Shown: positions 619 through 15,033 of the stretch, piece after piece | Layout of the letters: each line of letters opens with the position of its first letter | Position numbering within the stretch: position 1 is the stretch's first letter | The notes under the pieces: generated by a model | The model's database searches: none | What the model saw: only the letters and a program-made list of their open reading frames with translations | What the model was told of the DNA's origin: nothing | Origin: a virus | Length of the DNA: 46,988 nt | IMG/VR virus record: IMGVR_UViG_3300045747_000487 | Location: 1 to 46,988 of that record | Reading direction: 5' to 3' (one strand) | Translations under genes and position numbers: made by a program

Positions 619-897
619 GTGAACTACGCCCTGAACCTAACACAACAAGAGCTTGACTACATCGCCCAGACGATGGGTCAGCGTCCGTGGCTGGAGGTGA
701 ACCCGGTCATGGTCAAGCTTCAACAATCCGCCGCCGTACGCGACGCCGCCGTGGCCGAAGACACCAAGCTGCTCGCCGCCGCGAAGGACGCCGCCGCGAA
801 GGACGCCGCCGCGAAGGACGCCGCCGCGAAGGACGCCGCCGCGAAGGACGCCGCCGCGAAGGACGCCGCACCCGTCGCAGAGGCGCTCCCATCATGA
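619..897 (+). CDS. Small protein with an AAAKD repeat tail, 92 aa
   Basis: It starts with GTG at 619 behind a clear AGGAGAAG ribosome binding site. Residues 1-52 form a mixed N-terminal segment (ELDYIAQTMGQRPWLEV). Residues 53-82 are six exact AAAKD pentads, followed by AAPVAEALPS. The repeat should form a rigid charged alpha-helix, much like EAAAK linkers. The stop overlaps the next start (ATGA). It is unknown; small proteins beginning with a similar 'LTQQELDYIAQTLGQRPW' stretch occur in tail regions of phages, but no function is assigned here. Confidence 0.65.
   Translation: MNYALNLTQQELDYIAQTMGQRPWLEVNPVMVKLQQSAAVRDAAVAEDTKLLAAAKDAAAKDAAAKDAAAKDAAAKDAAAKDAAPVAEALPS
775..864 (+). repeat. 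In-frame 15-bp tandem repeat, 6 copies (AAAKD)
   Basis: Six copies of gccgccgcgaaggac follow one another without a mismatch and encode AAAKD. A unit of 15 bp keeps the frame whatever the copy number, so the helix length could change by slippage or recombination. Confidence 0.95.
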
Positions 898-3429: not shown

Positions 3430-3611
3430 GATGCCTTCTCCTGCAACGCGAGTTCAGCGGCCATCGACCGCGCACACACCACGGCCAGCTTCGCCGCACT
3501 GTCGGCGAACCACTGTTGGTCCGCCGGGGACATCGTCAGCAGCTGTACGCCCGTGCTGCCGCTGGAGAGAATCGCCCACCACGCGAACGGTATGAGCTCA
3601 GACTGTTCCAT
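3426..3611 (-). CDS. Hypothetical protein, 61 aa
   Basis: The ATG at 3611 was chosen because AAGGAGC stands 6-7 bases upstream; longer in-frame starts would overlap the DUF3310-like gene almost completely. It overlaps the end of that gene by 14 bases and the next gene by 4. The protein reads MEQSELIPFAWWAILSS and then a polar helical part. The function is unknown. Confidence 0.55.
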   Translation of the reverse strand: MEQSELIPFAWWAILSSGSTGVQLLTMSPADQQWFADSAAKLAVVCARSMAAELALQEKAS

Positions 3612-4065
3612 TGAGCGCTCCTTCGGGGCGGGTGCGCAGCGCGTTGTCCACGGCTTCCGCCGTAGTCGTAGCGTCGAGTTGCGCGCGGGCGATGATCGTG
3701 TCCAGCAAGTGACGCGCCCACAAGACATCGTCTGCGTCGCGCGCACGCATCAGCGTGTAGAGAAAGAGTGCGTCCACGCGCTCAACACCGTTGGCGCGCA
3801 CGAACGTTTCGACGTTCGCAGCCAACGCCCGAGGGGCTATGGCGTACGTGGGTGCGGACGCACTCACCGCCTCGTGGTACTTCGTCACGTAGTGGCGCGC
3901 CTTGCGCAGGTCTTCCAACCCGTTCTTCTTGCGCCACCGGGCAACGTACTTCGACGCGCAAGCCACAAGCCACATCGTACCGTACGTGTCCAGCATGAAG
4001 TCCCAGTGCTGGTACCCTGACTTGTAGTGGGTGCCGCCTTCTTGAAAGTCGTTTGCCGTGCTCAT
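3598..4065 (-). CDS. DUF3310-like protein, 155 aa
   Basis: The N-terminal half carries the pattern of the small phage DUF3310 family: HYKSGYQHWDFMLDTYG, then SKYVARWRKKNGLEDLRKARHYVTKYHE (residues 13-65). In phages this domain is often found next to nucleotide metabolism genes, and it is sometimes fused to nucleotide kinases. Its biochemical role is not established. The C-terminal half (residues 75-155) is helical and not recognised. It overlaps the upstream HD-domain gene by ATGA, which places it in the same translational unit as the nucleotide and hypermodification genes. Confidence 0.75.
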   Translation of the reverse strand: MSTANDFQEGGTHYKSGYQHWDFMLDTYGTMWLVACASKYVARWRKKNGLEDLRKARHYVTKYHEAVSASAPTYAIAPRALAANVETFVRANGVERVDALFLYTLMRARDADDVLWARHLLDTIIARAQLDATTTAEAVDNALRTRPEGALNGTV

Positions 4066-4601
4066 GATGCCAGTGCCCTTTCCAAAGTGTCGAGAATGTA
4101 GGTTGCCGTCACAACAGCGCTAGCTGGAGCGGGAGCGTTGATGTTGTTCAGGTACGTGCGCACATACGAGCAGTACACGCGCCCGACGGCGGCGGCGTAG
4201 CGGTTGCCCATGCGCGCTTGCTCTGTACAATAGTACGCACCCTCCAGGCAGTCCGCCAGCTTCAACAGCCACGCTTCCACGGGCGTGAGCGCGGGCAGCG
4301 CTATGTCGTGCCTGCTCAGCTCTTCGGTTTCCGCCGCATCGAAGGCAGCGCCCAGGTTCAGCCTGCGCTTCACCGGCGCGGGCAAGTCTCCCGTCGCCAC
4401 CTCGGCTACGTCGTGGAGAAGGGCACACTGAAGCAGTTCGCTGGACGGCGTACCGGGGCGGTGCAGCTCCAACAGGATCGCCGCCACTCCCCACGAGTGC
4501 GCCGCCACGGACTGCGGAGCGATACGCTCGGTGTGGTAGCGGGCGACGGCTCCGCCCGAGAACAGGAAGTCCGTGCGCAACACGGTTTGTACGGCGCTCA
4601 T
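4062..4601 (-). CDS. HD-domain nucleotide phosphohydrolase (YfbR/5'-nucleotidase-like)
   Basis: The metal-binding HD pattern is clear: H35 in AAHSWGVA, H63-D64 in ALLHDVAEVATGDLP and D117 in LLKLADCLEG. R21 in AVARYH sits where YfbR-type enzymes have an arginine for the substrate phosphate. YfbR removes phosphate from deoxynucleoside monophosphates; phage relatives include dNTP triphosphohydrolases such as DatZ. The gene overlaps the thymidylate-synthase-like gene by 4 bases. I infer that it removes a competing nucleotide, for example dTMP/dTTP or another dNTP, so that the modified nucleotide enters DNA. Its substrate cannot be read from the sequence. Confidence 0.8.
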   Translation of the reverse strand: MSAVQTVLRTDFLFSGGAVARYHTERIAPQSVAAHSWGVAAILLELHRPGTPSSELLQCALLHDVAEVATGDLPAPVKRRLNLGAAFDAAETEELSRHDIALPALTPVEAWLLKLADCLEGAYYCTEQARMGNRYAAAVGRVYCSYVRTYLNNINAPAPASAVVTATYILDTLERALAS

Positions 4602-5752
4602 GAGCCCACCCCGCCGTTGTTGGTTGTGAACAGGGCTTGCTGCTCCTTTTCCTTGCGCGCAGCTACGCGGCGGTCAATCCACTCCTCAGCGGCGGCGCGC
4701 CAGTCCGCAGCGAGGCACTGACGCAGCCACTCGTACGCCACGCTCACGTTGCCTTGCTTGTACTCGAAATGCGCATTCAACAACGGCACCGCCACAGTGA
4801 CCAAGAAGCGGCTGTCCAGGTTTACGTCGTGCGCCCAGTAGCCGTCGAGTGTGTAGCGCGCCACGAGCACTTCGCATTCGCGCAACCACACGGCAAAGTC
4901 TTCGCCCGCATCGAGGAGCGGTACGGGGAACCACTTGCGCCACGTGCGCGTGTAGCAGGGGTCGCCCACCGTGTATCGGGGATCGCCCACCACCCGAGGC
5001 ACCCACGTTTTCGGATCGTCGCTCGGCATCGAGAACAACCGCTGCACATCCGGACGGTCGATGTACATGTGGTAGTTGTTCGACATCTGGTAGTACGTGC
5101 CCACGGCGTACCCGGCGGCTTGTGCGACAAACTCCTGCAGCATGCCCATGTGCACGTAGTTCGCGCCGTACGCACCCCATATGATGTCGTTCGAGCGGTT
5201 ACACACGGTCATGTCCAGCGCCCCGTCCTTCACGGAAAGGTACGCATGAGTGTTACACGGTACGTCCGCGCCGCCCGCCTTCGCCTTCAGCGTGTCGTCC
5301 CACTTGTCGCTGGAGCGCGCCAACCGCATCCCGTTCCACATGCTGATCACAACGCGGCGCGTGGTCGGGTCGCCACGCAGGGCGATGATCGCGCTGGCGA
5401 TCTGATCGAAGCCGAACCAATGGCGCCAGCGCATGCCGTAAGCGCCCCAGAGCGTCTCGCCGTCGTCACTGAACGTCTCGATGTGCTTCGCGTAGCGCGC
5501 GGGGCCAGCGGCGTCGTTCGCGCCAGCGAGCATCCACAAGCCCTCGAACAGGTGGAAGAACGGGTTGGCGTCGCGAAGCGGCGACAGCAACACGCGCTCC
5601 GTGGGCTGTAGGTACTCCGTGATCACGGGACCGTCCGCCACCAACACACGCCCGTTGCGCGACTGCTCGACGCGCCCGTTGCCCTTCAGAAACCACAAGC
5701 CCGACTCCAACGCGTCATTCACGTTGCGGGCTTTGATCGTATGTACTCCCAT
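4598..5752 (-). CDS. Thymidylate synthase-fold enzyme, probable dUMP hydroxymethylase
   Basis: The protein has 384 aa with the thymidylate synthase signatures: RRVVISMWN (about 132-140, phosphate-binding arginines), the catalytic Cys166 in DVPCNTHAYL, NRSNDIIWGAYGANYVHMGML (185-205, with an Asn near 198 where TS reads the uracil) and SNNYHMYID (224-232). TS methylates dUMP. A sister group in phages with hypermodified thymidine instead adds a hydroxymethyl group to give 5-hmdUMP. Sequence alone does not separate the two, but the adjoining kinase and transferase genes favour the hydroxymethylase. RBS AAGGAG precedes the ATG. The C-terminal 30 residues are a charged extension. Confidence 0.85.
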   Translation of the reverse strand: MGVHTIKARNVNDALESGLWFLKGNGRVEQSRNGRVLVADGPVITEYLQPTERVLLSPLRDANPFFHLFEGLWMLAGANDAAGPARYAKHIETFSDDGETLWGAYGMRWRHWFGFDQIASAIIALRGDPTTRRVVISMWNGMRLARSSDKWDDTLKAKAGGADVPCNTHAYLSVKDGALDMTVCNRSNDIIWGAYGANYVHMGMLQEFVAQAAGYAVGTYYQMSNNYHMYIDRPDVQRLFSMPSDDPKTWVPRVVGDPRYTVGDPCYTRTWRKWFPVPLLDAGEDFAVWLRECEVLVARYTLDGYWAHDVNLDSRFLVTVAVPLLNAHFEYKQGNVSVAYEWLRQCLAADWRAAAEEWIDRRVAARKEKEQQALFTTNNGGVGS

Positions 5753-5770: not shown

Positions 5771-6631
5771 TTAGAACTGCGGTTTGTATGAGCTGCGGGG
5801 CTTACCTTCGCCGCGCAGCACACGTTGATACTTGTCGAACTCACACAGACAGTTTTGTACATCCTGTGCGTGCATGACCTCCCATCCCTTCGGCAACTGC
5901 GTGTTCGTGTATTCGCGAAGCGCCAGCACGCCGTCCAACCACTCCTGCTCCACCCAGGGCGTGCTCACGTCCCGGCCCATTACGCGGTTCAACCCACGCT
6001 TGCTTCCCGGCCCACTAGCGGCGAACGTATCCCAGTCGGGCGCATTCACCAGCAGCGGCGTGTACTTCAAGTCCGCCACCACTTGCGCCGCCAGGAAGCT
6101 TCCCCAACCAGGCATGTTCATCAGCCGCTCGTGGAACGCGCGCAGCGTGTCGTCGCGCCGGGGGCGGAGTGCGTTGCGTTCGCCCCACAACGGATCGAGC
6201 ATCTTGATGCAGGTGTAGAAGGGCTTGTCCATCGCGTCGCTGCGCAGCATGTACGCACCTGTGTAGACCTTCTCGCCGCGCGCCGCCCGGTGCCGCATCT
6301 TCTGCAACGCCTTCAACGAATCCCAACGCTTCGGGAACCCAACCTCCACCAGCGTGTCGGGCCAGTTTATGGCGCGCGCCACCGCTGCCGCAAACCACAG
6401 GTTGGGGTGTGTGCTGTTCGGGTTGTACCACTGCGTGCGCAGCCAGACCGACACGCGGTCCAACTCCCTGTACACATTGCAAAACCTGAAACTGCCTAGG
6501 ATGGGATCGTCTGTCCACACGGGTGCGCCGTCCACTACCCGCACCGGCGTCCCCGCCGCGCGCCGAAGGTATACCGCATGGCGTGCATTCACGAAAGCAA
6601 CGAAGTCCTTGTTAACAAGCGCTGCGCTCAC
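5771..6631 (-). CDS. Helical protein of the 5-hmdU DNA kinase / aGPT-pyrophosphorylase group
   Basis: The start is GTG at 6631 (GTGA overlap with the upstream stop, GGGAG before it); longer starts run into the methyltransferase gene. The 286-aa protein has FRFCNVYRELDRVSVWLR near residues 47-64, a HhH-glycosylase-like stretch MPGWGSFLAAQVVADLKY, then GPGSKRGLNRV and DVQNCLCEFDKYQR near the C-terminus. These are hallmarks of the helical domain found in phage 5-hmdU DNA kinases and in the alpha-glutamyl/putrescinyl thymine pyrophosphorylases, also called amino acid:DNA transferases. It could be the missing helical half of the kinase at 7329 or a second transferase. Confidence 0.75.
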   Translation of the reverse strand: MSAALVNKDFVAFVNARHAVYLRRAAGTPVRVVDGAPVWTDDPILGSFRFCNVYRELDRVSVWLRTQWYNPNSTHPNLWFAAAVARAINWPDTLVEVGFPKRWDSLKALQKMRHRAARGEKVYTGAYMLRSDAMDKPFYTCIKMLDPLWGERNALRPRRDDTLRAFHERLMNMPGWGSFLAAQVVADLKYTPLLVNAPDWDTFAASGPGSKRGLNRVMGRDVSTPWVEQEWLDGVLALREYTNTQLPKGWEVMHAQDVQNCLCEFDKYQRVLRGEGKPRSSYKPQF

Positions 6632-7332
6632 TTCAGCTCCCAGGCGTAGATCAGGCGATCGTAGAACGACTTGAACCGCTCCGCGCCAGACTCCAGTGCA
6701 CGGTCGTACTCGGGTTCGTACCAGATGTTCCTGTACCGCTTCTTGATCGCGTTCAGCCGCCGCCGCAACGCCTTGGTGCTGTCGTCGCGTGACGTGTGGT
6801 ACTCCAGAACTAGCTTGTTGGCGCGCGGCAGGAGCCACTTGTCGAGGATCGCGCCTTCGCTACCCTCGATGTCCATCTTGATACCGTCGAACTCCTTGTC
6901 CATCAACGCGCCAGCCCACACATTCTTGACGGGCGGTTGCGCCACGTACCCGTGCACGGGCAGGATCGTACCGCGTGCGTGGGTGTTGCGGTTGCTCGCG
7001 AAGAAGGTGATTGTAGGCTCGTTCAGGGCGGTCACGGCGGCATTCACCGTGATCATCTTCTGCACATTCTTGCGCAACACCCGGTAGCAGTCCGGGTCGG
7101 GTTCGTAGCACATGGCGGTGGCGCCACGCGAGCGGCAGTACAGTCCGAAGGCTCCGATGTTCGCCCCCAGGTCCAGCCACCGTTCGCCCTTCTCCACGTC
7201 GAAGCCGATGCTGGCGCGGCGGTACGAGCGGCGGGTGATAACTTCCTCCAGGATGCGTTCGTCACCACTGACCTCGTCACCATTGTCGTCACGGTAGTGG
7301 CACGTCAAGCCTTGTATGATCTTTGTCTTCAT
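6628..7332 (-). CDS. FkbM-family SAM-dependent methyltransferase
   Basis: The 234-aa protein has the Rossmann SAM site RWLDLGANIGAFGLYCRSRG (about residues 51-70), an acidic ribose-binding end to strand 2 in AMCYEPDPDCYRVL, and the FkbM-typical GIKMDIEGSEGAIL at about 150-163, where Asp and Glu sit by the active site. FkbM enzymes usually O-methylate sugars or small molecules; they are not the usual DNA base methylases, and no DPPY or PC motif is present. The gene overlaps both neighbours (kinase and helical-domain protein) by 4 bases. From this I infer that it may methylate the group attached to the modified base. A sugar or lipid substrate is the main alternative. Confidence 0.85.
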   Translation of the reverse strand: MKTKIIQGLTCHYRDDNGDEVSGDERILEEVITRRSYRRASIGFDVEKGERWLDLGANIGAFGLYCRSRGATAMCYEPDPDCYRVLRKNVQKMITVNAAVTALNEPTITFFASNRNTHARGTILPVHGYVAQPPVKNVWAGALMDKEFDGIKMDIEGSEGAILDKWLLPRANKLVLEYHTSRDDSTKALRRRLNAIKKRYRNIWYEPEYDRALESGAERFKSFYDRLIYAWELK

Positions 7333-7934
7333 GCCGGTTCCTTGCGGATCGTTATGTTGTACAGACGCATCAGCGCCCGCAGCGGTTGTTCGTGGTCGAT
7401 GATCTCCACGCGTCGTTGCGGCACGCCGCCCTCGCCCAGCACCAACTTAGAGCGCAGGCGTGAGATCGACGCAAACTTGGACTCGATGTTGCGGTTGTTC
7501 GACAGCGGCTCCGCGCCGCGCGCCGCCCGCCTTCGGTTCACGCGGTCTATACACAGCGCCAGCGGCGTGTCCAGGAATGCGAACGCGAAGCGGTTGCCGT
7601 ACGCCTCTGACGCCTTCCCAATCGCGCCGTAGGTGGTGCTTGTGAGCGCGCCTTCGAACAGCACGTGCCAGCCCAGCGCGTCAGCCTCCACAACGCGCGG
7701 CAGTATGTCGGCGAACGGCTGTACAGCGTCGCAGCCGCCGCAGGGCGTGGTGTATGGGCCGACGATGAACAGCTTCGCCTCGGGCAACCGCACGAGGTGG
7801 CCGAGGGGCTTACTCGCGGACGTGGACACGCCCGGCATCGAGTGCACCGGCTCCTGGCCGTACTTGTCCATCACCTTGCGCGCCAGCGTGCTCTTGCCGG
7901 AGCCGTGCGTGCCGTGTAGCTTGACGATGGTCAT
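7329..7934 (-). CDS. P-loop kinase, probable 5-hydroxymethyl-dU DNA kinase
   Basis: Walker A is GTHGSGKST at residues 8-16. Residues near 58-92 (GPYTTPCGGCDAVQPFADILPRVVEADALGWHVLFEG) and a lid-like CIDRVNRRRAARG follow. This arrangement matches the P-loop part of phage 5-hmdU DNA kinases, which phosphorylate the 5-hydroxymethyl group in DNA to make it a leaving group. Characterised kinases carry a helical domain in the same chain. Here the 201-aa protein stops after the P-loop fold and helical-domain proteins are encoded separately. It overlaps both neighbours by 4 bases. Confidence 0.75.
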   Translation of the reverse strand: MTIVKLHGTHGSGKSTLARKVMDKYGQEPVHSMPGVSTSASKPLGHLVRLPEAKLFIVGPYTTPCGGCDAVQPFADILPRVVEADALGWHVLFEGALTSTTYGAIGKASEAYGNRFAFAFLDTPLALCIDRVNRRRAARGAEPLSNNRNIESKFASISRLRSKLVLGEGGVPQRRVEIIDHEQPLRALMRLYNITIRKEPA

Positions 7935-8770
7935 AGTTCCCCCACAACGGTAGCTTCTGGCAGCTTGTTAGCGCGTTGTCCGTGGTTCAGCTCGCGAAAC
8001 GTCACGATCATGAACGGAGAGTAGCTGTTGTTCGTCACCAACGTCAGTGAACGCGCTTTGCGCAACAACACCGCGTAGGAGATTTTGTACAGCTTCTTTG
8101 TCACCCACGAGGGCAACCCGTCGCAGATCGTGTCGATACGCCAAAGCACACTCAGCATACGTTCGTCCGCCGGTTGTTCGCTATCCGCGAACCAAGGCAA
8201 CGCAAACGACATCACGCGCACAAACCTGTCTGCGTCCAACGTCGCATACTTGTAACACCAACCAACACCACGCACGTAGTTGGTAGTGCTTTTGAGCTTT
8301 TGACATACGCGCCAACCGTGGCGTTGAACGGTCGCCTCGACCAACTTAGCCACCGCGTCGCCTTGAAGAAGACGTTGCGCGTAAAGCTCAACGCTCAGCA
8401 CGCGCTTACGCACCGTGTTCAAGTCTATGAACATACGAGAAACCTCAGCCTCGGAATCGGCTTGGTATAGGTCGCACCGCAACTTCTTCACGCCCACTTG
8501 TCGCGCAGCCAACACGCGATGTTGCCCGTCCACCACCAACAACCGCCCGCGATAGACAGCCACTTGGATAGACCCCGCCAAGTCCAACTTCCAATTACGC
8601 GCAATGTTCGCCACGTGCGCTTTGTGCGCGGGGCGTTGCGCGTCGTGATCCGTTATCAACACAGACACGTCTTGTAAGTCTGTGCCGATGAAGCGCGACT
8701 CCGTGGGGTCTTTGAGACCTACGCTTTTGCGCGGGTTGGGTGTTGCGTCAATACTTGTTTGCCTGCTCAT
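7931..8770 (-). CDS. ParB-like N-domain protein, 279 aa
   Basis: The ATG at 8770 overlaps the stop of the FAD gene (ATGA) and lies about 6 bases after GAAGGAG; longer starts would run through that gene in another frame. The ParB-type core is LLVVDGQHRVLAARQVGVKKLRCDLYQ near residues 78-104, with an upstream DLAGSIQVAVYRG strand. A helical C-terminal part (about 110-279) is not recognised. ParB folds bind or hydrolyse nucleotides and appear in phages as nucleases or partners of DNA modification systems. Its place inside the modification cluster suggests a related role, but the activity is unknown. Confidence 0.75.
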   Translation of the reverse strand: MSRQTSIDATPNPRKSVGLKDPTESRFIGTDLQDVSVLITDHDAQRPAHKAHVANIARNWKLDLAGSIQVAVYRGRLLVVDGQHRVLAARQVGVKKLRCDLYQADSEAEVSRMFIDLNTVRKRVLSVELYAQRLLQGDAVAKLVEATVQRHGWRVCQKLKSTTNYVRGVGWCYKYATLDADRFVRVMSFALPWFADSEQPADERMLSVLWRIDTICDGLPSWVTKKLYKISYAVLLRKARSLTLVTNNSYSPFMIVTFRELNHGQRANKLPEATVVGEL

Positions 8771-9585
8771 GTCAGCTCCTTCACGAATTGATATGCTTGC
8801 CAAGCGGCCAATACAGTGCCGTTCTTGGCGCCCCCAGTGGACACCCATACGTTGGGCATGGCTCGGGCGAAGTACCCTGCCTTGTGCCCTGGCACGTATG
8901 GACGCGCACCGACTGTTACGCGCGGCTTGCTCTTCAACCCGAACAACGATGCGCCGCGCGCCACCGTGTCCGCCTGCCTTTGTACAGACTCCTTCTCCCA
9001 CGTGGTGGTGATCAGCGCCGTGCCGTCTCCCATCCAGACCGCGTTGCCCCGCAGTTGGAAGGCGACTGCCTGCCTGTACGGAGCGTACACGTGAATGCGC
9101 GGCTCGGGTAGCGTACCGCTGAACACGGCGGACGCGCCCCAAAGCGCCTTGATAGCCGGCATATGCACGAGGCGGTCTGTCCCGATACCCGCCGCCACGA
9201 GCACCTTGCCCCGGAGCACCTTGCCGCTGTCCGTCACCACCGCGCCGTCCCGAACCTCCACAACCTCCTCGCGTACGTCGGGCGTCACCAGTACGTCCTG
9301 CGGGTCGATGCGCTGGGCGCGGAAGGTCTTGAACAGGTTCGTCTTGAACTCCACATCGTGGACGGCGTACAGCCCCCCGAGCACATCCATGGCCGTGGCG
9401 ATCTGTTCAGACGAAAGGCTGCTCAGCCAGGAAGGCGCTAGAACGCACCCAGATGCCTTGCTCGCGCCGCCGGGTAGGTCGGCGCCCACTACCGTCACGG
9501 AGTGCCCCTGGGCACGCGCTAGGGTGGCTGCTATGCTTCCGAAGAGTCCAGCGCCCACGACTACGACGTTATGCTTGCGTGCCAT
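8767..9585 (-). CDS. FAD-dependent oxidoreductase (DAO-like), candidate flavin lyase of base hypermodification
   Basis: The protein has 272 aa. The dinucleotide-binding motif is VVVVGAGLFGSIAATLARAQGHSVTVV (GxGxxG at residues 11-16), followed by LPGGASKASGCVLAP, a DAO-like flavin contact. A second FAD region is VLRGKVLVAAGIGTDRL, and the C-terminus has NVWVSTGGAKNGTVLAAW, typical of D-amino-acid-oxidase-fold enzymes. In phages such as Pseudomonas M6, flavin-dependent lyases trim the amino acid attached to thymidine, leaving an aminomethyl group. With an apparent transferase gene overlapping upstream by 17 bases, that role is the most likely one here. Confidence 0.8.
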   Translation of the reverse strand: MARKHNVVVVGAGLFGSIAATLARAQGHSVTVVGADLPGGASKASGCVLAPSWLSSLSSEQIATAMDVLGGLYAVHDVEFKTNLFKTFRAQRIDPQDVLVTPDVREEVVEVRDGAVVTDSGKVLRGKVLVAAGIGTDRLVHMPAIKALWGASAVFSGTLPEPRIHVYAPYRQAVAFQLRGNAVWMGDGTALITTTWEKESVQRQADTVARGASLFGLKSKPRVTVGARPYVPGHKAGYFARAMPNVWVSTGGAKNGTVLAAWQAYQFVKELT

Positions 9586-10390
9586 GTGGCAACCCCTTCT
9601 GAAGTTGTTGTGCCAGGTCGCCCCAACCGTCCAGGCCGTGGGCTATCTCGCGGGTGTCCTTCCCCACAGGGTAGTGCCCGTTGCGGTGAGACTTGTACTT
9701 ACACAAAATGGTTTCGACCTCCTGTATATTGACCAACCTGTCGTATGCGGGCGGCGCTTTCGCTCCTTGTCGTTGCCAGTACGACACGAGCACCTCGCAC
9801 GTGTGGCGTAGCTCCAGGTTGCTGATGGGAGTGTTCTTGTCTCCGGTGGCCACGAGCGCCGCGCCTTGTCGCGGGTCTTTGTAGATGCCTAGTTCGCAAT
9901 CTGCGAAGTCCGTGTCATAGCCCAAGACGCGCTCGCTCATGTCTGCGACCTTGAAGGCAATCCAGTCCCCGAAGCCGTAATGCTCCTTGGCGGCGTTGGC
10001 GACGGACTGGAACGTCATGGTGTCTATTGAGCGCGTAGCTATGCCCAACAAGCCCTCCACGGCGTACATGGCGTCGCGTGCACCGTAGCGCTTGCGCAGT
10101 TCTTGTACCCCAGTGATGCTCAGGTCTCCTCTGAAGTGACGGCGTTCCGTACCGCGTGGCCAAGCGCGGTCGTGGTTGGCGGCTGCTTGCTCAAGCAGGT
10201 GCCAGAACGAAGAAGGGTTGCGACACTCGGCAAGGCGAGCGGCAACCCCAAGGTGGTAAAACAGCCAGTAAGCGAGACACAACCGCGCTCCGGTGCCGGC
10301 ATCTAGTCTCGCGTTTCGGAGCGCCACGTACACAGGGTCTAGGTCCTGTGTGCGTAGCAACTCGTCACCGAAGCTATACACTGTGTGCAT
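9569..10390 (-). CDS. aGPT-pyrophosphorylase / amino acid:DNA transferase-like protein
   Basis: The 273-aa protein is mostly helical: DPVYVALRNARL near 18-29, LAYWLFYHLGVAARL, a central KRYGARDAMYAVEGLLG, then DWIAFKVADMSERV, and a diagnostic C-terminal CKYKSHRNGHYPVGKDTREI followed by DGWGDLAQQL. This end is typical of the alpha-glutamyl/putrescinyl thymine pyrophosphorylase group. Members replace the activated phosphate on 5-hmdU in DNA with an amino acid or amine. It is the first gene of the cluster in transcription order. It belongs to the same broad group as the 5771-6631 protein, but the two differ in length and end motifs, so they probably do different steps. Confidence 0.75.
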   Translation of the reverse strand: MHTVYSFGDELLRTQDLDPVYVALRNARLDAGTGARLCLAYWLFYHLGVAARLAECRNPSSFWHLLEQAAANHDRAWPRGTERRHFRGDLSITGVQELRKRYGARDAMYAVEGLLGIATRSIDTMTFQSVANAAKEHYGFGDWIAFKVADMSERVLGYDTDFADCELGIYKDPRQGAALVATGDKNTPISNLELRHTCEVLVSYWQRQGAKAPPAYDRLVNIQEVETILCKYKSHRNGHYPVGKDTREIAHGLDGWGDLAQQLQKGLPHGTQA

Positions 10391-10403: not shown

Positions 10404-11306
10404 TTAGGCTGCGGACTTGAGAATGCCCTTCATGATGGCATACTGGGCGTAGCGCACCAGCTTGTCTTCCGAATAGCGGGCGGTGAACTGGGCTTGGATG
10501 GCGGCGATGTTGACGCCCTTCTTCTGCTCTGCCACCCACTTGCTGAGCTCCTTCAAGAAGCCCGACTTGACGCTGGACAGGTCGCCAACCACGAAGCGGG
10601 CGGACGCCTTGGGCACAGGCAGATCGACTTCCTTGCGGATCAGAAACGCGGCAACCTCGCCTGTGTTGGCCGTGATGTTCGGCTTCCGGGCGGCGGGGGT
10701 TGCGGCCTTCTTCGGTGCCGCTTCCGGCGCAGCGGATACTGGCTTCTTGGCAACGACGGGGGCGACCTTGGCCGTGGGTGCAGCCTTTGCTGCGGGCTTT
10801 GCTACGGGCGCGGATTTTGCTACGGGCTTTGCCGGTGCCGGGGTGGCCTTCGGAGCCGCCTTGGCTGCGGGCTTTGCCGGTGCCGGGGTGGCCTTCGGAG
10901 CCGCCTTGGCCTTCGGGGCGGCTTTGCCGTTGAAGCCCGAAGCGACGGGGGTTGCGGGGGTGGGTGTTGCGGTTGATGTGGTCATGAGAGACTCCTGGTC
11001 AGGGGTTTTGGTTGAAACTACGATGTTGGCCAAGTGAGGCTTGGCGATTGCTACCAACGCCTTGCGGGCGTCTTCGGTGCTCGGGATGTGGCTGCTGCTT
11101 GCGTACAGCGCAGCGGCGCGGGAAACGGGATACTCGGGGAACGGATGCCACGTGGTGTCGAACTCCTTGGCGGGCTGCTTGCGAATCTCGAGCCCCGCCG
11201 CCGTCATGGGGATGTACATGATCTGGCCCGCCTTGTCGAGACCCAGTACGATCGCCGTGTGGGTGCCGTCGCGATAAACCTGTGCTGCTTGCGCTACTGA
11301 TGCCAT
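10404..11306 (-). CDS. Ala/Pro/Lys-rich, histone H1-like linker protein, 300 aa
   Basis: The ATG at 11306 has GGAGAAC upstream and was preferred to a start 61 codons earlier that overlaps the next gene. Residues 1-105 form a folded-looking domain (IVLGLDKAGQIMYIPMTAAG). Residues about 120-205 are low-complexity AAPKATPAPAKPAAK repeats, like bacterial and eukaryotic H1-type tails. Residues 205-300 are again globular (TGEVAAFLIRKEVDLPVPKASARF). The basic middle could bind DNA or act as a flexible linker. There is no enzyme motif. It lies just upstream of the modification cluster, so a DNA-binding role is plausible but unproven. Confidence 0.65.
   Translation of the reverse strand: MASVAQAAQVYRDGTHTAIVLGLDKAGQIMYIPMTAAGLEIRKQPAKEFDTTWHPFPEYPVSRAAALYASSSHIPSTEDARKALVAIAKPHLANIVVSTKTPDQESLMTTSTATPTPATPVASGFNGKAAPKAKAAPKATPAPAKPAAKAAPKATPAPAKPVAKSAPVAKPAAKAAPTAKVAPVVAKKPVSAAPEAAPKKAATPAARKPNITANTGEVAAFLIRKEVDLPVPKASARFVVGDLSSVKSGFLKELSKWVAEQKKGVNIAAIQAQFTARYSEDKLVRYAQYAIMKGILKSAA
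10823..10909 (-). repeat. 45-bp tandem duplication inside the Lys/Ala-rich linker
   Basis: Bases 10823-10865 recur exactly at 10868-10910 (period 45 bp, in frame), so the stretch KAAPKATPAPAKP is present twice. This looks like a recent in-frame expansion of the low-complexity tail. Confidence 0.9.
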
Positions 11307-11343
11307 GGTGTTCTCCGGGAAGTTGGGTGCTGGGATGTAGTGC

Positions 11344-13716: not shown

Positions 13717-13972
13717 GGTACCTCAGTGCTTTGTGGATGAGCTGCTGGGGAGGCGTAGCGACTTCGCCCAGTCGCTTAAACTCGATGAATAGCGGCTTGC
13801 CGCCGGGAATGAAGAACTGCCTGTCTGGCCAGTGGTTGTTGCCTTGTAGGTTGAGCTTGATGCTGCGGACCCGCCACCGCACCAACACGTAGTCCACGAC
13901 ATACTGCTCGATGACAGCCTCAAGCTCATGGGCATACGTGCCCGGGACCGTCGCGGGGTCAAGAGGCGTCAT
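13568..13972 (-). CDS. VRR-NUC domain nuclease
   Basis: The nuclease core lies at residues 46-95: NHWPDRQFFIPGGKPLFIEFKRLGEVATPPQQLIHKAL, with D50, E64 and K66 forming the PD-(D/E)XK-type metal site. The 134-aa protein is a single-domain phage form that may cut branched or flap DNA. After residue 97 the frame runs on inside the start of the helicase gene (149-base overlap). This gives an Arg-rich tail, EVSARARRRRVVS, that may be an accident of the shared DNA. It overlaps the upstream GNAT gene by 14 bases. Confidence 0.85.
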   Translation of the reverse strand: MTPLDPATVPGTYAHELEAVIEQYVVDYVLVRWRVRSIKLNLQGNNHWPDRQFFIPGGKPLFIEFKRLGEVATPPQQLIHKALRYHGYKVEVHDNRRTALCAVYAACTEALGAAPVSEEGGEVSARARRRRVVS

Positions 13973-14315
13973 GGCGTCGAATCATCAAGTCCGCGTCGCA
14001 CGGCGCGAAGCCGTGATCAGCGTAGAACGCCCACAGCGCAGCCAGCTCGGGCTTCGCGCCGTTACCGAACGGAGCCGGGTAGCAGTACACGTCGAAGCCA
14101 TACGCGTCCGCGAAGGCTACGCACTCCGCCACGACGATGCTTGCCCACCCACGGCGGCGACGCAACGGGTGACAGTGCACGTCGGTGAGCGCAACCAGCG
14201 GCGCTTCGCTCGCGAGCTCAGCGCAACACGGCTCAGGTTCCGTGAGCGACGCCTCCGCGATAAAGCCGCCGTGACCGACAACGTACCGATACACCAAGGA
14301 CGCACGCGACGCCAT
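13959..14315 (-). CDS. GNAT-fold acetyltransferase, 118 aa
   Basis: The ATG at 14315 has GGAGCAGGG upstream; an earlier same-frame start would overlap the nuclease gene. The GNAT core is short: LVALTDVHCHPLRRRRGWASIVVAECVAFADAYGFDVYCYP (about 40-80, with RRRRGWAS as the likely acetyl-CoA phosphate loop) and LWAFYADHGFAP near the end, the usual final strand-helix. Acetyltransferases are among the tailoring enzymes of thymidine hypermodification. This gene, about 3.6 kb upstream of the cluster in the same direction, could supply that step. N-acetylation of a protein or small molecule is equally possible. Confidence 0.75.
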   Translation of the reverse strand: MASRASLVYRYVVGHGGFIAEASLTEPEPCCAELASEAPLVALTDVHCHPLRRRRGWASIVVAECVAFADAYGFDVYCYPAPFGNGAKPELAALWAFYADHGFAPCDADLMIRRHDAS

Positions 14316-14328
14316 CACCCTGCTCCGA

Positions 14329-15033
14329 TTAGAATTTGCACGGCCCACCGTTGCTCCGGCGGAAGTGGCACCACCTGCACGCATCTCCGGGCTTCGGCGC
14401 AAACGTCGTATCGTTCAGCATCGGCTTCACCCGCTTCTCCCACGTGGTGCGCAGCTTCTTCGCGTCCTTTGCCAGGTACGGCTTCGTGTCTTCCGGGGGC
14501 CAGTCCAGACCTTCGTCGATATACCACAGGCGCGGCTCCACTGCCAGCACATCGGGGCATTGTACAAACCCGGCGGCGGCGTACAGCTCCAGCTGCTCCA
14601 CATACGCCTCGTGCTGCTCGGGCCTGAACTTACCCGTCTTGTGGTCGATCACCACCAGCGTGTTATCGTCCCGGATGAACGCCAAGTCCATCTTCACACG
14701 CAGCCATGCGCCGCTCCAGTCGTTCCACGCAGCAGGCGACCAGTCCGCCTTGTATGCCCACTGCTCCTCCACCATCTTGCTCTTCAGCTTCTTCACAGCG
14801 GCAAACTCGGGCTTGAACGATAGCAGCTCTGGGGGCAGCGCCTTGATCTTGCCCAGCGTGTAGTCTTCGGCCAGCTTGTGTATGGCGGTGCCGCGATCCA
14901 TCGCCGCGCTTCCCGGCTCCTTCAGCTTGTCGATGTGCTTGTACTTCGCGAGCGCGGGGCACTTCTTGTAGTCGGAGTACCGGCTGAACGACCACGCTGT
15001 GATCTGCTTTATGGGGATTACCTTCGTTGCCAT
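14329..15033 (-). CDS. PD-(D/E)XK exonuclease, Cas4/RecB-like, 234 aa
   Basis: The ATG at 15033 follows CCGGAGAG. Motifs: SFSRYSDYKKCPALAKYKH (14-32) with the first Cys, GTAIHKLAEDY with the His of motif I, an Asp in WLRVKMDLAFIRDD, and VVIDHKTGKFRPEQ with the catalytic D-x-K. A C-terminal CRWCHFRRSNGGPC supplies three more Cys. Four cysteines in this arrangement fit an iron-sulfur cluster as in Cas4 and AddB nucleases. The probable role is processing DNA ends in replication or recombination, next to the polymerase gene. Confidence 0.88.
   Translation of the reverse strand: MATKVIPIKQITAWSFSRYSDYKKCPALAKYKHIDKLKEPGSAAMDRGTAIHKLAEDYTLGKIKALPPELLSFKPEFAAVKKLKSKMVEEQWAYKADWSPAAWNDWSGAWLRVKMDLAFIRDDNTLVVIDHKTGKFRPEQHEAYVEQLELYAAAGFVQCPDVLAVEPRLWYIDEGLDWPPEDTKPYLAKDAKKLRTTWEKRVKPMLNDTTFAPKPGDACRWCHFRRSNGGPCKF

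Follow-up and report, generated by a model that had tools for sequence, protein, structure and literature searches.

What might an FkbM-family methyltransferase do in the middle of a viral operon for thymidine hypermodification? Thymidine hypermodification is a known means by which phages escape restriction, and the tailoring described for it so far comprises amino-acid addition, lyase, isomerase and decarboxylase reactions, and acetyl transfer. The gene in question occupies positions 6628 to 7332, on the minus strand, of a 46,988-nucleotide stretch of viral DNA (IMG/VR record IMGVR_UViG_3300045747_000487), here called the window. It encodes 234 amino acids from an ATG start and is proposed here, from sequence and gene context, as a candidate 5-hydroxymethyluracil (5-hmU) DNA methyltransferase. 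The first-pass annotation had placed the protein in the FkbM family, and this assignment was borne out by a match to PF05050 (Methyltransf_21/FkbM; E 5.1e-7) that scores 30.4 bits, where the curated cut-off is 22.7. The annotation had also described 4-base overlaps with the kinase gene and the helical-domain gene, and both are indeed read from the minus strand: the kinase stop codon TGA (7331-7329) lies on the FkbM ATG (7332-7330), forming ATGA at 7329-7332, and the FkbM stop codon TGA (6630-6628) lies on a GTG (6631-6629), forming GTGA at 6628-6631.

The gene belongs to one tight minus-strand operon. Its order begins with an amino acid:DNA (glycine) transferase (ADDT; 9569-10390; PF18724, E 4e-23), and the profile of its family (A4) has the solved glycinyltransferase structure 8z2m among its matches. 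A flavin-dependent lyase homologue of the DAO fold follows (8767-9585; PF01266, E 1.4e-12), matching the structure 8z2o, named 'Flavin-dependent lyase', at 4.5e-40. Next are a ParB-like/DUF6551 protein (7931-8770; PF20188, E 1e-4, below the cut-off; ParB-like phrog_1033, E 7e-10) and a predicted P-loop 5-hmdU DNA kinase (7329-7934; HMUDK_HMUD1, PF18748, E 2e-6, just above the cut-off), which could be aligned to its positional counterparts in the M6 and PaMx11 operons. FkbM is then followed by an HMUDK_hel/aGPT-Pplase1-type helical protein (hel; 5771-6631; PF18723, E 2e-43) with a DNA-glycosylase-like fold, which is 286 amino acids long if the GTG at 6631-6629 is its start. The operon ends with an M6-type thymidylate-synthase (TS) homologue (4598-5752; PF00303, E 8.5e-19; phrog_5131, E 7e-99), which by its family match is a putative dUMP hydroxymethylase, an HD (YfbR-like) nucleotidase (4062-4601; PF12917, E 1.4e-10) and a DUF3310 protein (3598-4065; PF11753, E 7.7e-8).

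The ParB-like protein between the flavin lyase and the kinase also shows faint DndB similarity, and NTP binding has been reported for DUF6551 ParB-fold phage proteins (PMC12704722). Just upstream of the operon lies a repetitive protein rich in Ala, Pro and Lys (10404-11309, minus strand), and A/P/K-rich ORFs similarly precede ADDT in the virus contigs L014, L023, L024 and L026. Elsewhere in the window, a short protein at 619-897 (plus strand) carries a tandem AAAKD repeat of about 7 units, likely a rigid helix.

The closest known pathway is that of Pseudomonas phage PaMx11, which encodes a glycinyltransferase (gp46), flavin lyase (gp47), acetyltransferase (gp48), kinase (gp49), hel (gp50) and TS (gp51); the first two proteins have counterparts among solved structures, under the names 5-phosphomethyl-dU glycinyltransferase and flavin-dependent lyase. 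The window shares ADDT, flavin lyase, kinase, hel, TS, HD and a DUF3310-type gene with PaMx11 in the same order, with matches to the TS homologue, kinase, hel, ADDT and flavin lyase as PaMx11-type components. It differs in having a ParB-like gene before the kinase and FkbM between the kinase and hel. Unlike PaMx11, it encodes no GNAT acetyltransferase between ADDT and TS. A GNAT-like ORF at 13959-14342 (minus strand) makes a poor candidate for the missing enzyme (weak Pfam matches, 0.028; hhalign probability <1% against the pathway acetyltransferases), though it could be a displaced acetyltransferase; it lies between VRR-NUC-like and PD-(D/E)XK genes, 3.6 kb upstream of the operon. Among 28 virus contigs retrieved with a flavin-lyase alignment, a local profile recognised the acetyltransferase in 15, and in seven of these (L014-L017, L023, L026 and L035) the gene lies exactly between the kinase and hel. 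This is the slot that FkbM occupies in the window; the PaMx11 acetyltransferase is placed after the lyase. The M6-type pathway to 5-(2-aminoethyl)-dU shares TS, kinase, hel and ADDT with the window; searches of the window for the M6 radical SAM enzyme and the M6 PLP enzyme gave no homologue.

The AlphaFold2 model of the FkbM protein (pLDDT 94.5) has a class I methyltransferase fold. The top solved folds were the rRNA/tRNA base methylases RlmK, Trm5, TYW2 and RsmD (Z 12-12.8), a ranking that is unspecific, as many class I methylases tie at these Z values. The SAM motifs DLGANIG and YEPDP and a K-D-x-E-G-x-E motif are intact, and the A7 profile matched 2py6, a solved example of the FkbM family, at 1.4e-5. 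PF05050 was matched by 35/35 FkbM relatives at E<=0.01. Residues R14, D24, E30, Y37, R120, K152, E156, E159 and E177 are invariant in 35 FkbM sequences from all gene contexts, as are the SAM-site residues D54, G56, G60 and E77 (35/35); isoelectric points were uninformative. Characterised PF05050/FkbM members usually methylate hydroxyl oxygens. The window protein is like the family in its above-threshold profile match and differs from the family at large in belonging to a compact, single-domain viral clade that is tied to DNA-base modification genes, not to glycan or antibiotic clusters.

To follow the gene in other viruses, alignments were needed, since scans of viral contigs with the single window FkbM or hel protein gave no matches. 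An FkbM alignment seeded with the window protein and those of phages HTVC112P and MED4-117 found 123 IMG/VR relatives, and the best 80 were fetched. The 20 closest of these, representing about 13 lineages once near-copies are merged, are 36-56% identical to the window FkbM over most of the protein, and all 20 are in virus records that encode hel. Nineteen of the 20 have hel and FkbM on one strand, separated by no more than 0.55 kb in 18 of them and by 2.2 kb in L122. In L141, hel and a kinase lie on the FkbM contig at a distance of about 14 kb. The 20/20 count is independent of the two TET-linked seeds, because the window is its only close seed. The architecture of the window recurs in L131, which encodes ADDT, lyase, kinase, FkbM (50% identical to that of the window) and hel, with FkbM flanked by two 4-bp overlaps, again GTGA and ATGA; L126 also has FkbM between kinase and hel, and an ATGA overlap. 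The repetition of kinase/FkbM/hel with two overlaps in L131 argues that the architecture of the window is more than chance. In the reverse direction, FkbM was found in none of the 80 hel, 80 ADDT and 28 flavin-lyase loci fetched. Thus, FkbM is an uncommon accessory, and its adjacency to hel does not simply follow from hel being ubiquitous.

Other genes were seen at these loci. A GATase_6 glutamine amidotransferase-like gene, possibly a further tailoring step, lies beside ADDT, FkbM and hel in L138 (1795-2535) and L139, and ORFs of the GIY-YIG or NUMOD3 homing-endonuclease type adjoin the FkbM or hel genes in L122, L128 and L138.

Twelve records (L124, L125, L127-L130 and L132-L137) carry hel, FkbM and TS, and neither the kinase nor the ADDT profile matched anywhere on their contigs; because virus records can be fragments, a missing gene is firm evidence only in the circular genome described below and in phage genomes searched whole, and divergent kinases could escape profile detection. 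Six of these contigs (L124, L125, L129, L133, L136 and L137) are 33-66 kb long and gave no flavin-lyase match either. In seven of the records, searched further, there was no match to the flavin lyase, and AAA_33 P-loop matches were confined to one record, where the score was far below the cut-off. The same absences were found in the 67,368-bp genome of L132, which is circular and probably complete, since it has a 123-bp terminal repeat and its hel ORF reads continuously across the joined ends. These phages indicate that glycine or aminomethyl chemistry is unnecessary for FkbM to be retained beside hel and TS. Because the FkbM clade is found in hel/TS phages with no detectable kinase or ADDT, 5-hmU is a simpler substrate than a late amino-acid side chain.

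The other 60 of the best 80 relatives have a different neighbourhood: a TET/JBP gene lies beside FkbM in 56/60 and a ParB gene in 53/60, the TET/JBP count depending on the two TET-linked seeds of the alignment. In these cassettes, exemplified by HTVC112P of SAR11 and MED4-117 of Prochlorococcus, a related FkbM (about 30% identity) is directly beside ParB and TET/JBP, and the hydroxymethyl group would be made on DNA by TET/JBP, whereas in the window it would be made by the TS homologue. ParB genes are thus seen both in the window operon and alongside the TET-FkbM cassettes. No PF00145 C5-cytosine methylase and no PF00303 TS was found in 24 TET-FkbM records, of which HTVC112P and MED4-117 were searched whole; PF00145 matched in 10/14 control genomes, and both searches were positive in most controls. 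From the missing C5 methylase we infer that thymine is the TET substrate; host 5-methylcytosine is a possible substrate instead.

A connection between TET/JBP and the PaMx11 chemistry was seen in two IMG/VR loci of 8 and 19 kb (L028 and L029), where genes for ADDT, flavin lyase, acetyltransferase and kinase come after ParB-TET/JBP; with no TS homologue nearby, these loci look like a PaMx11 pathway fed by TET. Likewise, Rhodococcus phage Tonitrus is reported to carry genes for ParB, a TET/JBP-like protein, aGPT-Pplase2 and a 5-hmU kinase (PMC11955845). Therefore, ParB-TET would seem to be another means of supplying this pathway with 5-hmU.

The first-pass annotation had regarded FkbM as built into the hypermodification operon and had named a lack of recurrent linkage elsewhere as evidence against its reading. 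The lack was not found: the gene overlaps its neighbours on both sides, and its linkage recurs in other phages, with 20/20 of the closest relatives in hel records and 56/60 of the next beside TET/JBP.

Phylogenetic analysis placed the hel-associated FkbMs, including that of the window, in a monophyletic group (17 rows; bootstrap/SH-aLRT 100/97, and 97/93 in a smaller tree). Within it, the FkbMs of kinase/ADDT phages and of kinase-less phages are intermixed, and forcing either set into one clade was weakly rejected (p-AU 0.038 for the kinase-bearing, 0.025 for the kinase-less). Thus, it is simpler to assume one substrate for both sets than a switch between substrates. In cellular genomes the clade is almost missing, with 2 weak matches in 84,980 bacterial and archaeal species. 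More distant FkbMs that have glycosyltransferase, ThyX or thymidylate-kinase genes beside them (Trina, StarPlatinum) were set aside because the tree puts them on long branches outside this clade.

In its model (pLDDT 92.4), hel has a fold like that of DNA glycosylases. Its best structural match was the PaMx11 glycinyltransferase 8z2n (Z 11.5 over 226 residues, rmsd 4.2), and the archaeal OGG structures 3fhg and 3knt scored Z 10.8-11.0 (SsOgg Z 10.8). These values are suggestive of a base-flipping role, and for a helical protein they are not proof of it. The residues invariant in hel are preserved in the kinase-less phages too, so that hel seems to serve some purpose even where there is no kinase, and the name under which Pfam lists it, '5-hmdU DNA kinase, helical domain', may cover only part of its role.

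As 5-hmU in DNA is the common denominator of all FkbM contexts, we propose O-methylation of the 5-hydroxymethyl group. According to this model, the TS homologue would make 5-hmdUMP, which would then be polymerised into DNA, and hel, by its modelled base-flipping fold, would present 5-hmU in TS-type phages. Two fates could follow. The kinase would phosphorylate some 5-hmU, and ADDT and the flavin lyase would convert it through a glycine adduct to aminomethyl-dU, as in PaMx11. Alternatively, FkbM would transfer a methyl group from SAM onto the hydroxymethyl oxygen, yielding 5-(methoxymethyl)-dU. In the window, the FkbM route would run parallel to the kinase/ADDT/lyase route, and the methyl ether might protect 5-hmU that escapes hypermodification; in phages lacking the kinase, it would be the final base. 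In TET/JBP phages, 5-hmU would arise from T, and FkbM of the same clade would then act on it.

We consider that FkbM probably methyl-caps 5-hmU or its decorated form. That it O-methylates 5-hmU in DNA to 5-methoxymethyl-dU, on a base presented by the glycosylase-fold hel, is a tentative reading to which we give slightly less than an even chance. A little more tentative is the generalisation that the whole virus-specific clade comprises 5-hmU DNA O-methyltransferases making 5-(methoxymethyl)-dU, with 5-hmU supplied through TS and polymerase or through ParB-TET/JBP and with a base-flipping glycosylase-fold partner that works kinase-free. The full kinase-ADDT-lyase route of the window is a counterpoint, as FkbM there could act on a later intermediate.

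The main alternative, which we regard as rather unlikely, is that FkbM replaces the PaMx11 acetyltransferase and N-methylates the 5-aminomethyl-dU left by ADDT and the flavin lyase, giving 5-methylaminomethyl-dU. The window has both of these enzymes and no operon acetyltransferase, L131 repeats ADDT, flavin lyase, kinase, FkbM and hel, and the acetyltransferase holds the FkbM position in the seven contigs named above, a placement that hints at tailoring of the amine. A precedent for such chemistry exists in the MnmE/G-MnmC wobble uridine pathway, where tRNA MnmC removes a carboxymethyl group in a flavin-dependent reaction and then methylates (cmnm5U to nm5U to mnm5U). N-methylation in the window would copy this logic in DNA; MnmC is a two-domain enzyme, and the window proteins are not homologous to it as such. 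However, the hel-FkbM phages without ADDT and lyase, together with HTVC112P and MED4-117, would offer no amine, L122 and L123 have ADDT and no detectable lyase, FkbM enzymes usually O-methylate, and the kinase-bearing FkbMs form no clade of their own. The same two loci would fit methylation of the carboxylate of the amino-acid adduct that ADDT yields, and FkbM lies directly before ADDT in L122. This reading, or one in which free 5-hmdUMP is methylated before polymerisation, is less likely still: ADDT is missing from most relatives, and TET/JBP enzymes act on DNA, so that a free-nucleotide substrate would not fit the TET cassettes.

FkbM might instead have different roles in the two groups, serving in TET cassettes as a pyrimidine methylase that supplies 5-methylcytosine to TET. 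The pairing of a methylase with TET is a known logic in phages, the 24 TET-FkbM records lack a PF00145 methylase, and the fold resembles rRNA/tRNA base methylases (Z ~12). We nevertheless judge this quite improbable, as it leaves unexplained the hel/TS phages, where 5-hmU would come from TS, and as FkbM is an O-methylase family with conserved residues common to the hel and TET groups. Least probable, and by a wide measure doubtful, is that FkbM is an unrelated passenger that acts on host surface sugars or glycans and is in the operon by chance. FkbM genes often reside in glycan or natural-product clusters, but this reading is largely refuted by the linkage to 5-hmU genes over about 13 lineages and the TET cassettes, and the repeated 4-bp overlap architecture and the near absence of the clade from cellular genomes also speak against it.

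The literature that we searched, which did not reach the main pathway papers, holds no report linking FkbM to hypermodification, JBP or pelagiphages. Within it, the earlier suggestion that FkbM methylation is a new step seems right, and 5-(methoxymethyl)-deoxyuridine is, as far as searched, a base without earlier description. The enzyme families and the pathway were already known; what is new, within the same literature, is the association of this FkbM clade with 5-hmU DNA. If true, methyl capping would be a new branch of base chemistry in phage DNA, would explain phages that carry hel and have no detectable kinase or transferase, and would tie TET/JBP phages such as HTVC112P and MED4-117 to the same chemistry.
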